Below are positions 3,543 to 36,013 of a stretch of 39,013 nucleotides of DNA, piece after piece. The stretch's first letter is position 1, and each line of letters opens with the position of its first letter. The position numbers and the translations under genes were made by a program. Source of the stretch: Hydrogenophaga sp. (GTDB lineage: Bacteria > Pseudomonadota > Gammaproteobacteria > Burkholderiales > Burkholderiaceae_C); contig NZ_JAQVEJ010000010.1 in assembly GCF_028698005.1 (NCBI RefSeq), forward strand, positions 1 through 39,013, given 5' to 3'. The notes under the pieces were generated by a model. That model ran no database searches and had not been told where the DNA came from. It was given only the letters and a program-made list of their open reading frames with translations.

Positions 3543-5537
3543 ATGAATCCATCAGACACCCTGGTCCCGGAAACGCCGGCGGACAAGCTCGCCAGGTATT
3601 CAGCCTGCGGCATCATCGAACTCGATGCCTCTTTGCGCGTCGTTGCCATCAATGCACCCTTGCTCGACTGGCTGAATATCGAAGCCAAAGACTGCGTGGG
3701 GCCCGATGGTGCCGGCGTTTCGTTTGTGGAGCTGGCCAGGATCAACGATGAAGAATGCGTGCAGCGCCTGCGGAAGTTTGTCGCCAGCGCGTTGGCCGGG
3801 ATACCGCCTGCTGCGTTGCACATCCGGCTCTGGGGGAAGGGGCGTTCGTTCATCACCGCCAGGCTGCTGGCCGGCGAAGTGGACTTGCAGGCGCCGGTGC
3901 CAACCGTCAACGTGTCCATCATCGATGCCACGGAGGAAATGGACACCATCCGGGAACTGAAGGCAAAGATCGCGTTTTTGCAGGGCACGGTTGACCGCTC
4001 ACCGTCCGCGCTGGCGTATTTTGACGCCGACCTGGTCTGCCGGTTTTCCAACCGGGCTCACTCGGCCCGGTATGGCCGCGTGCCGGCGGGTGTCGTCGGG
4101 CTGCACCTCGAGGACATCCTGTCCCCGGCACTGCTCAAAGATCTGCTGCCCAGAATCGCCCGGGTTCTGAGCGGTGAATCGCTGTCGTTTGAGGCCGAGC
4201 GCCAGGGCGACAACGGTGAACACAAGTTCTTTTCCGTGCGGCTGACGCCGGATTTTGACGGTGCCCATGTCGTGGGGTTCTTCGCCGAGCACAACGACAT
4301 CACCGACCGGAAGATGACCGAGGATCTGGTCTTCGTCGCCAACCAGGAGCTGGAGGAACAGTACCAGCGCAAGGCGCTGGAATGCCGGCAGCAGGCGGAA
4401 CAACTCGCGCACCTGGCGCTCGAGGCCCGTGACCGGGCCCAGTTCGTTGTCGACGCCGATGGCACCATCGTGGCCTGGCCTCCCGGTGCCGCCCGCCTTT
4501 TTGATCGCAGCGAAGCCGCCTGCCTGGGCCGGAACATCGAAGAGTTGTTCGTCAGCGAGCGGTCAACCCCTTTGAACGGCGACCTCATTCGCCGCCTGCC
4601 GCAAGAGGACAGCGAGACCGTGGCCCGTGTCAGCGCCTGGGGCCTCAGGTCGGGCGATCGCCGTTTCTGGGCCGATTGCAGTTTCGCCCCGCTGTCCTGC
4701 GGCGCCGATGAACGCCGGCTTTTCTCCTGCGTGGTGCACGACCTGACCGAGTCCGGGCTGCTGGAGGGCATGTTGCGCTCGCAGGGCCGCTCGCTACAGG
4801 ACGAGGTGCAAAAGCAGGCGGCACTCCTGTCCCGGATCAACGAGGATTTCGACAACTTCTCCTATCTCGTCGGGCATGATTTCCGCGCGCCGTTGCGGCA
4901 TATCAAGGGCTACGTCCAATTGCTCAAGGAGTCGGAGGTCGTGGCCGCGTCAAGCCCGGATCTCCGGTACGTGGATGACATCGATCGTCTGGCCTCCAAA
5001 ATGGGCGGCATGGTCGATGCGCTGCTGGAATACACCCGGCTGGGCAGCGAGACACCCGCCTTTGCCAAGGTGGATGTCGGACAACTGATCAAGGCCACCG
5101 TCGGTCAGTTCAAGGCGCAGCACAGCAACCGGCTGATCCACTGGGAGGTCGAGCCGGAGATGCCGCAGGTCAGAGGTGATCCTGCCCTCCTGGGCGAAAT
5201 GTTCTCGCGTCTGGTCGATAACGCGGTGAAGTTCACCGCCAAAACGGCGGGTGCAACCATCCAGGTCGGCGTGCGCGAAGGCTCTCCCGGGCGGTGCGTG
5301 ATCTTCATCAAGGACAATGGCGCGGGCTTTGACGCCGCGCAGGCCCCCAATCTGTACCTGCTGTTCCAGCGCCAACACCACACCATGGATTTCCCGGGTC
5401 TGGGCACAGGGCTGGCGATCTCGCAGCGCATCGCACAAAAGCATGGCGGCACCATCGAGTGCGTGGCCAAGCGCGATGAGGGCTGCACCGTGTACCTTGA
5501 AATTCCCCTGTGGACGCAGCAGACCGCGGCGGCTTGA
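3543..5537 (+). CDS. Soluble multi-PAS sensor histidine kinase
   Basis: PAS-like repeats, HisKA motif VGHDFRAPLRHIKGY, HATPase motifs (DNAVKFT, DNGAGFD, GTGLAISQRIAQKHGG). Confidence 0.9.
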   Translation: MNPSDTLVPETPADKLARYSACGIIELDASLRVVAINAPLLDWLNIEAKDCVGPDGAGVSFVELARINDEECVQRLRKFVASALAGIPPAALHIRLWGKGRSFITARLLAGEVDLQAPVPTVNVSIIDATEEMDTIRELKAKIAFLQGTVDRSPSALAYFDADLVCRFSNRAHSARYGRVPAGVVGLHLEDILSPALLKDLLPRIARVLSGESLSFEAERQGDNGEHKFFSVRLTPDFDGAHVVGFFAEHNDITDRKMTEDLVFVANQELEEQYQRKALECRQQAEQLAHLALEARDRAQFVVDADGTIVAWPPGAARLFDRSEAACLGRNIEELFVSERSTPLNGDLIRRLPQEDSETVARVSAWGLRSGDRRFWADCSFAPLSCGADERRLFSCVVHDLTESGLLEGMLRSQGRSLQDEVQKQAALLSRINEDFDNFSYLVGHDFRAPLRHIKGYVQLLKESEVVAASSPDLRYVDDIDRLASKMGGMVDALLEYTRLGSETPAFAKVDVGQLIKATVGQFKAQHSNRLIHWEVEPEMPQVRGDPALLGEMFSRLVDNAVKFTAKTAGATIQVGVREGSPGRCVIFIKDNGAGFDAAQAPNLYLLFQRQHHTMDFPGLGTGLAISQRIAQKHGGTIECVAKRDEGCTVYLEIPLWTQQTAAA

Positions 5538-30317: not shown

Positions 30318-30407
30318 CCGCTGACCACTTATGGCGCCACGGCCCAACTCTGGTACAAAGGACATGCCATTCGGCACATTCATCCATTGAGCAGAGGAGC
30401 GCGATCC

Positions 30408-30740
30408 ATGAGCGGAAAATTCGAGATCAGCAAGGCCAAGAACGGCAAGTTCATGTTCCACCTCAAGGCCGGCAATGGCGAGGTCATCCTGAACAGCCAG
30501 ATGTACGAAACCCGGGCCAGTGCCCTGCAGGGTGTCGATTCTGTCAAGGCCAATGCCGCCCAGGACGAGCGCTACGTGCGTGCCACGTCTTCCGACGGCA
30601 AACCCTATTTCAACCTGAAGGCGGCCAATGGCCAGATCATCGGCAGCAGCGAGATGTACTCATCGGCCGCGGCCATGGAAAACGGCATTGCCTCGGTGAA
30701 GAAGAACGCCCCGGGCGCCAGCACGACCGACCTGAGTTGA
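30408..30740 (+). CDS. YegP family protein with two DUF1508 repeats
   Basis: Tandem KFEISKAKNGKFMFHLKAGNGEVILNSQMY and YVRATSSDGKPYFNLKAANGQIIGSSEMY. Confidence 0.92.
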   Translation: MSGKFEISKAKNGKFMFHLKAGNGEVILNSQMYETRASALQGVDSVKANAAQDERYVRATSSDGKPYFNLKAANGQIIGSSEMYSSAAAMENGIASVKKNAPGASTTDLS

Positions 30741-30863
30741 CCCACCGTCCGGCGGTGACCCCGCGCGGCTGCCGGAAATGCCGGGCACGAGGCCGGGCAG
30801 AAACCGCACCGGAGGCTAGCGGGAAAAAGTGCCTGGCTGGCGGAACGGAGTCCGTTGGCTGGC

Positions 30864-30901
30864 AAAAAACGACCCTGGCGACTGCTTGCCGCCCCGGGTC
30901 G
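30864..30901 (-). terminator. Rho-independent terminator (3' end of candidate sRNA, or icd transcript end)
   Basis: Minus strand CGACCCGGGGCGGCAAGCAGTCGCCAGGGTCGTTTTTT. Confidence 0.8.
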
Positions 30902-30973
30902 CCCCACGATGAGCCAAAGCATGACCCAGGCTTGGCGTTCCGGCCTGGGGAGCTGTCATAGGGTGGACCCTAC
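30864..30973 (-). ncRNA. Candidate Fur-regulated small RNA
   Basis: Fur-box-like palindrome upstream, two stem-loops (30959-30972 and 30925-30949) and a U-tract terminator within about 110 nt; no credible ORF. Confidence 0.5.
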
Positions 30974-30975
30974 CA

Positions 30976-31002
30976 CAGTTGATAATAATCATTATTCAAC
31001 TG
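30976..31002. promoter_or_regulatory. Candidate Fur box
   Basis: CAGTTGATAATAATCATTATTCAACTG; 15/19 match by eye to GATAATGATAATCATTATC, with inner AATAAT-C-ATTATT palindrome. Confidence 0.65.
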
Positions 31003-31066: not shown

Positions 31067-32326
31067 CTATTCGTCCATCGCCTCGATCATGGCCTGGCCG
31101 AAACCCGAGCACGACACTTGCGTGGCGCCGTCCATCAGGCGGGCGAAGTCGTAGGTGACCTTCTTGGCCAGGATGGTGCGCTCCATGCTGGCAATGATCA
31201 GGTTGGCCGCTTCGCGCCAGCCCATGTGGCGCAGCATCATCTCGGCCGACAGGATCAATGAACCGGGATTGACGTAATCCTTGCCGGCATACTTGGGCGC
31301 CGTGCCGTGCGTGGCCTCGAAGCAGGCCACCGTGTCACTCATGTTGGCGCCCGGCGCGATGCCGATCCCGCCCACCTGCGCGGCCAGCGCGTCGGAGAGG
31401 TAGTCACCGTTGAGATTGAGCGTCGCGATCACCGAATATTCGGCCGGCCGCGTGAGGATCTGCTGCAGGAAGGCATCGGTGATGACGTCCTTGATGATGA
31501 TGGAGCGGCCGGTCTTGGGGTTTTTGAGCTTGCACCACGGCCCGCCGTCGAGCAGTTCGGCGCCGAATTCCTTCTGCGCCAGCGCGTAGCCCCAGTCACG
31601 GAAACCGCCTTCCGTGAACTTCATGATGTTGCCTTTGTGCACCAGGGTCACGTTGGGCTTGTCATGATCGATCGCGTACTGGATGGCCTTGCGCACCAGA
31701 CGCTCGGTGCCCTCGATCGAGACCGGCTTGATGCCGATGCCCGAGGTCCCGGGGAAGCGGATCTTGTTCACGCCCATTTCTTCCTGCAGGAAGCGGATGA
31801 GCTTCTTCGCGTCATCGCTTTGCGCAGGGTATTCGATGCCGGCGTAAATGTCCTCCGAGTTTTCGCGGAAGATCACCATGTTGGTCTTTTCCGGCTCCTT
31901 GAGCGGACTGGGAACCCCCCTGAAATACTGCACCGGACGCAGGCAGACATACAGATCGAGCTCCTGGCGCAACGCCACATTGAGCGAGCGGATACCGCCA
32001 CCCACCGGTGTCGTCAGCGGCCCCTTGATCGACACCACGAAGTCCTTGAAGACCTGCAGGGTTTCCTCGGGCAGCCATACGTCCGGGCCATACACCTTGG
32101 TCGACTTCTGGCCGGCATACACCTCCATCCAGTGGATCTTGCGCTGGCCACCATAAGCCCTTGCGACGGCCGCATCGACCACCTTGAGCATCACCGGCGT
32201 GATGTCGACGCCGACACCGTCACCTTCGATGTACGGAATGATGGGCTCATCCGGCACATTCAGCGACATGTCGGCATTGACGGTGATCTTCTGGCCTTGC
32301 TCAGGCATCTGGATGTGCTGGTACAT
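31067..32326 (-). CDS. icd: NADP-dependent isocitrate dehydrogenase (homodimeric type)
   Basis: [27 protein letters not shown]...[15 protein letters not shown]...[31 protein letters not shown] chosen at 32326. Confidence 0.97.
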
Positions 32327-32462
32327 GGAAATCCGGTCTCCTGGATTGTCGGGAATCAAACGGGCCGCCAAATTCTATCCACCCGCTCAGCATGCCGCGG
32401 GTGCCCGGCATGGCGCACAATGCCGGCACCCGATTGATTCTTCGTTGTTGTTGTCGCTTGCC

Positions 32463-32952: not shown

Positions 32953-35190
<2,238 letters not shown>

Positions 35191-35317
35191 GAGGGTTCTC
35201 CGGATGTCGTTGTGGATATCGGCTGCCAGCCTTGCCTGTTGGGTTCGGCCAAACCTGTCTATTTTGCGTTCAACGGTCGTTGGCGGGCATCGCTTTTTGA
35301 CCTGATTTACCGCATTA

Positions 35318-35332
35318 TGGTATCTGATACCA
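35318..35332. promoter_or_regulatory. Candidate GntR-type operator upstream of monomeric isocitrate dehydrogenase
   Basis: Perfect palindrome TGGTATC-T-GATACCA. Confidence 0.45.
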
Positions 35333-35382
35333 AAATTACGGCTTTTTTTTGTCGCCACCCCCGCTGTATCCCGGCAGGCGAA

Positions 35383-35412
35383 AAAAAACCCGAGGTGCCA
35401 TACCTCGGGTTT
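35383..35412 (-). terminator. Rho-independent terminator of sodB
   Basis: Minus strand AAACCCGAGGTATGGCACCTCGGGTTTTTTTT. Confidence 0.9.
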
Positions 35413-35431
35413 CGTCATGGGGTGAGCGCGA

Positions 35432-36013
35432 TCAGCCGAAGTTCTTCTCGGCGAACGACCAGTTCACCAGCTTGTCGAGGAAGGTTTCGACGAACTTGGG
35501 ACGCAGGTTGCGGTAGTCGATGTAGTAGGCGTGCTCCCACACGTCGACGGTCAGCAGCGCCTTGTCCTCGGTGGTCAGCGGCGTGCCGGCGGCGCCGGTG
35601 TTGACGATGTCCACGGAACCGTCGGCCTTCTTGACCAGCCAGGTCCAGCCGGAACCGAAATTGCCCACGGCGGACTTCACAAAGGCTTCCTTGAAGGCGG
35701 CGTAGCTGCCCCACTTGGCGTTGATCGCAGCGGCCAGCGCGCCCGAGGGTTCGCCACCTCCGTTGGGCTTCATGCAGTTCCAGAAGAAGGTGTGGTTCCA
35801 GATCTGGGCTGCGTTGTTGTAGATGCCGCCACTGGATTTCTTCACGATCGATTCGAGATCCATGTTCTCGAACTCGGTGCCCTTCTGGAGGTTGTTGAGG
35901 TTCACCACATAGGCGTTGTGGTGCTTGCCGTGGTGGTACTCCAGAGTCTCGCGGCTGTAGTGGGGAGCCAGATCATCCAGTCCATAGGGCAGCGGAGGCA
36001 GGGTGTGTTCCAT
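35432..36013 (-). CDS. sodB: Superoxide dismutase [Fe]
   Basis: [68 protein letters not shown]. Confidence 0.96.

Follow-up and report, generated by a model that had tools for sequence, protein, structure and literature searches.

A very probable iron-starvation small RNA gene downstream of Hydrogenophaga icd

The element between icd and the DUF1508 gene

The window, by which we mean the whole 39,013-nucleotide stretch of Hydrogenophaga sp. DNA that was analysed (NZ_JAQVEJ010000010.1), carries on its minus strand, between icd (31067-32371) and a DUF1508 gene (30387-30740), an element that a preliminary description of the sequence had read as a possible Fur-repressed small RNA. The neighbourhood also contains, on the minus strand, an 821-codon frame (32953-35418) that we take to be a monomeric NADP isocitrate dehydrogenase; together with the PF00180-type icd (31067-32371), both isocitrate dehydrogenase types are apparently close neighbours here.

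The Fur-box-like palindrome reported at this place is present on the minus strand at 30978-30996, where it matches GATAATGATAATCATTATC at 15 of 19 positions. It is the top site of the 39-kb window, the second-ranking non-overlapping Fur-like site reaching only 12/19, and it encloses the hexamer TATTAT (30987-30982), a possible -10 box. Because a consensus promoter scan returned no sigma-70 site at the element, the putative transcription start, near 30975, is placed from TATTAT. Both 5' stem-loops of the preliminary description, TAGGG-TCCA-CCCTA (stem-loop 1, 30959-30972) and CCCAGGC-N11-GCCTGGG (stem-loop 2, 30925-30949), were recovered on the minus strand by RNA folding and are lineage-specific, and the GC-rich hairpin with six U residues was found as well, ending in TTTTTT at 30869-30864, the first U-tract of the element. 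The features of the proposed module of about 110 nt (30864-30973) are thus all there but its extent was too short, as the conserved unit runs some 40 nt further, to 30824. RNA folding gave the three stems, with an energy of -53.9 kcal/mol (z -2.2); over the full 155 nt, the energy is unexceptional (z -1.2).

The 3' part of the element is a conserved core of 90 nt (30913-30824, minus strand), which scores 78.2 bits with our covariance model R1, a value that is not independent since the window copy was among the 37 training sequences. Its parts follow the order CAUCGUGGGGCGACC, hairpin, U-tract, GCCAGCCA, hairpin, AGCCAGGCA, U-tract. The core opens with the near-invariant CAUCGUGGGGC (30901-30911), the proposed pairing region, which is complementary to the sdhC ribosome-binding region and whose alignment columns are invariant, in loci that were in part chosen by that very motif. 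The P1 hairpin, GGGGCGAC...GUCGUUUU, forms with the first U-tract a terminator-like structure (30864-30905) that is mostly invariant and has 99% of its cells paired; it could act as a termination point at 30864, ahead of the second half. There follow the conserved first GCCAGCCA box (30856-30863), the P2 hairpin AACGGA-C-TCCGTT (30844-30856; helix 4 of the model, in which all five pairs covary), a conserved second box, GCCAGCCAGGCA (30830-30841), and a second U-tract (30824-30828), conserved in the family, at which the RNA would end.

The preliminary description had seen no plausible open reading frame. A 58-codon ATG frame (30992-30816) does cross the element, but it begins within the Fur box and matches nothing in Pfam. 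Upstream, the interval between the icd stop codon and the Fur box contains no T-run, and therefore icd transcripts probably enter the element and stop at its U-tracts.

Conservation, covariation and genomic settings of the core

BLAST searches with the region matched 33 of the 67 genomes of the genus Hydrogenophaga, mostly only over query positions 149-211 (~30912-30850), and reading of the matched loci revealed the longer common core with its end at 30824. With the covariance model, a type of search that had been suggested at the outset, this core was detected in 121 genomes out of 400 from the host's family, spread over 40 of 126 genera; this is a lower bound, because strict filters were applied. 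Within a 299-genome sample of the order, the model matched 17 genomes, several of the matches being weak and outside the family. Stem-loops 1 and 2 lie outside the core and, by the genus-level BLAST, their sequence is not kept in relatives, so that the expectation of conserved stem-loops holds for the core and fails for the two 5' structures. Many stand-alone copies (see below) have a 5' hairpin of other sequence in the place of stem-loop 2, and the leaders of the 25 stand-alone copies fold with a mean z of -1.2.

An alignment of 80 distinct sequences contained standard pairs in 93.5% of pair cells and 93 double-change cells, against 29.9 in shuffles, although these counts lean towards the structure to which the alignment was fitted. 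Sliding the pairs by one to three columns destroyed the signal. Support from covariation comes mainly from P2, because P1 hardly varies. Conservation, covariation and the lack of a Pfam match together indicate a conserved structured non-coding element. Tandem copies of the core, ~120-165 nt apart, were seen in three loci (L015, L006 and L154), in the last of which both stand behind hemP.

Altogether we examined 81 copies of the core, from 79 loci plus the window. Directly behind the haem-uptake gene hemP lie 55 of them; the others are stand-alone (25), except for one (L129): the frame upstream of it has SLTK as its last residues and is possibly what remains of a hemP-like gene. Among the stand-alone copies, 21 of 25 are preceded, within 140 nt, by a Fur-like site of at least 12/19; the same holds for 5.4% of shuffles and for none of the 55 regions immediately upstream of hemP-type cores. 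In 52 of the 55 hemP-type copies, the stretch 200-650 nt upstream contains a Fur box of at least 13/19, compared with 1.5% of shuffles. With Fur boxes upstream of both forms, stand-alone and hemP-type copies therefore appear to be both under Fur. The Fur box of the window copy is the best match among all 25 stand-alone copies. The hemP of the window's own genome (locus L194) has no core behind it, and the model finds only two copies in that genome, both stand-alone and with Fur-like sites. Apart from the window copy, no fetched copy has icd next to the core, and the icd neighbourhood thus seems peculiar to this species.

Eight copies of the core are closely followed by a gene resembling the Fur family, and two of the eight also stand behind hemP. 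The core is here 44-102 nt upstream of the gene and in the same orientation (L032 at 4466-4552, L066, L076, L125, L133 and L139, also L132 and L153), an arrangement that suggests a linked sRNA-regulator unit. One locus fetched for comparison, from Comamonas sp. JUb58, contains a fluoride riboswitch (RF01734; L055, 5265-5330, minus strand).

Part of the core reaches further. The hemP gene of other families of the order is often trailed by AGCCAGCC, a short hairpin and a second AGCCAGCC. Exact twin boxes were counted, by eye from two lists, within ~250 nt downstream and on the same strand in 18 of 45 hemP places, where ~0.002 would be expected from roughly 130 pattern matches in 100 genomes. These order-wide RNAs may either be homologous to the whole core or share only its twin-box half. 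Three loci from a genus of another family, tentatively Nitrosomonas-like (L177, L178 and L279), have the twin AGCCAGCC element behind a gene that we read as bacterioferritin; in L279 the order is hemP, then this gene, then the boxes.

Candidate targets and described RNAs

Of 35 genomes with the RNA, 80% have in the sdhC start region a stretch of at least 6 nt that is perfectly complementary to the 5' motif. The figure is 21% for 34 genomes in which the model had no hit, 14% for shuffles and 16% for background frames (crude gene calls of one genome, wrong frames among them); these percentages come from related genomes and are uncorrected for kinship, those with and without the RNA may be different clades, and the 6-nt test was devised after the sequences had been seen, together with a comparison of sdhC duplex energies between genomes with and without the RNA that gave no significant difference (p = 0.25). 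Within Hydrogenophaga, sdhC has 6 nt in 90% of cases (40% of shuffles) and 7 nt in 62% (11% of shuffles). The site in most genera is CCACGA at the ribosome-binding region, and in Hydrogenophaga it is often GCCCCAC immediately ahead of the start codon. Complementarity between the 5' motif and sdhC suggests iron sparing of the RyhB type.

The leuC gene, whose product is an iron-sulphur enzyme, is a suggestive further candidate, with complementarity in 50% against 19% (n = 14). GCCCCAC, complementary to the sRNA motif, occurs in the leuC leaders of some Hydrogenophaga genomes (L385, L387 and L393). Complementarity to sodB is weak (31% against 16%). Although this gene is a classical target of Fur-regulated sRNAs, duplex energy does not support it as one here, its median rank being near 0.69 of background. 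The window itself contains an Fe/Mn superoxide dismutase gene (35768-36010, minus strand; PF00081 match) about 5 kb from the sRNA.

RyhB, PrrF, NrrF and HrrF are stand-alone, Fur-repressed sRNAs that spare iron. The window element resembles them in this layout and in its proposed role, and its Fur box would lie over the promoter, as in the RyhB-like class; so would those of 21 of the 25 stand-alone copies. None of the four appeared in a permissive search of the element. Rfam 15 at gathering score likewise returned no family in the window or in 14 order-level loci, and nothing relevant came up when the element and related loci were searched permissively against Rfam. The element is one member of a widespread, mostly hemP-linked family.

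Among described RNAs, BrrF of Burkholderia cenocepacia (BTH_s39 in B. thailandensis), which is cut from the hemP mRNA (PMC7377471), comes closest; the likeness is one of position only. BrrF is induced more than 50-fold by iron depletion, has a U-run with no stem before it as its 3' end and is needed for the low-iron repression of sdhC, acnA, fumA and sodB (PMC7377471). With BrrF the family shares its place at the hemP 3' end (that is, in the relatives of the window copy) and, as predicted, regulation by Fur acting on the promoter of hemP and an RNA 3' end at a U-run with no stem adjoining it; iron-sparing targets that include sdhC are proposed as a further likeness. Fur control as for BrrF is predicted from the Fur box of the window copy and from those in the hemP promoter regions of 52 of 55 relatives. 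BrrF differs in having no Fur box of its own, whereas the window copy is stand-alone with one; standing behind icd, this copy lacks BrrF's position at the hemP 3' end, which most relatives share. The BrrF report mentions no genera other than Burkholderia, Paraburkholderia, Pandoraea and Cupriavidus, and describes nothing similar beyond Burkholderiales (PMC7377471).

Two other described RNAs were considered and rejected. S17 of Bordetella is a widely conserved betaproteobacterial sRNA (PMC11722255); RF02278, the model of the Burkholderia toxic sRNAs considered alongside it, matched neither the window nor any of the related loci that were searched, and the described trigger is not iron or Fur, unlike that proposed for the window element. 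The icd-II RNA motif is a riboswitch candidate upstream of icd (PMC8632094). Neither it nor the icd motif fits an element that lies downstream of icd, is preceded by a Fur box of its own and occurs elsewhere in association with hemP.

Alternative readings and proposed function

The window very probably contains an sRNA gene, downstream of Hydrogenophaga icd, that is switched on by iron starvation. We consider it likely that a stand-alone gene here encodes a Fur-repressed, trans-acting sRNA of ~150 nt (~30975 to 30824, minus strand) that spares iron in the manner of RyhB. Judged by its sequence, the window copy is one member of a conserved family, absent from Rfam, of putative hemP-linked and stand-alone Fur-controlled RNAs. 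The conservation and covariation of the core and the Fur boxes of its stand-alone and hemP-linked copies favour the Fur-repressed sRNA that had been proposed in the preliminary description.

It is unlikely, although this alternative survives best, that the RNA is Fur-regulated and has a mainly local role, or serves as an RNA or protein sponge through its repeated GCCAGCC boxes, instead of repressing mRNAs as RyhB does. No feature is shared more widely than the twin AGCCAGCC boxes (18 of 45 hemP places in the order) and the complementarity to sodB is weak, both as such a role would have it; against it, complementarity to the sdhC start region is found mainly in genomes with the RNA, and BrrF, at the same position in Burkholderia, acts in low-iron repression of mRNAs (PMC7377471). 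Still less probable is that the window copy is a decaying duplicate whose expression or function has been lost. Its icd position was not found in the other 66 species of the genus, and the same genome has a second stand-alone copy, but the window copy has the best Fur box of the 25 and an intact core (78 bits); with the hemP copy missing from this genome, function would moreover rest on the stand-alone copies. Least credible is the alternative raised in the preliminary description, that the element is only the icd terminator; the Fur-like palindrome would then be a matter of chance and no separate RNA would be made. The icd transcripts do probably end at its U-tracts, but across 40 genera this core turns up again, either behind hemP or standing alone with a Fur box, with no other fetched copy beside icd, and its conserved unpaired motifs and two U-tracts are more than a terminator needs.

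For the iron-sparing sRNA that we favour, we propose the following mechanism. When iron is plentiful, Fur-Fe2+ would cover the promoter. When iron is short, transcription from the gene's own promoter, perhaps joined by read-through from icd, would yield an RNA with a variable 5' hairpin ahead of the core, which most relatives would make from the 3' UTR of hemP mRNA under the control of Fur. If BrrF and RyhB are a guide, the unpaired motif UUCAUCGUGGGGC may pair, presumably with the help of Hfq, with the ribosome-binding regions of mRNAs for iron proteins, sdhC being the best candidate; synthesis of these proteins would be lowered and iron thereby spared.

On a wider scale, we lean, with some reserve, towards a betaproteobacteria-wide family of iron-stress sRNAs, with two AGCCAGCC boxes around a hairpin, whose main seat is the 3' UTR of hemP and which would repeatedly have broken away to form separate sRNA genes with Fur boxes, in some cases upstream of a Fur paralogue; the regulator would move between these forms and could replace the hemP copy. 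The element described here would provide a concrete candidate for the RyhB role in Comamonadaceae. Its relatives would take iron sRNAs of the hemP-linked type far outside Burkholderia, and together they may offer a natural case of an sRNA that moves between an mRNA 3' UTR and its own Fur-controlled gene.
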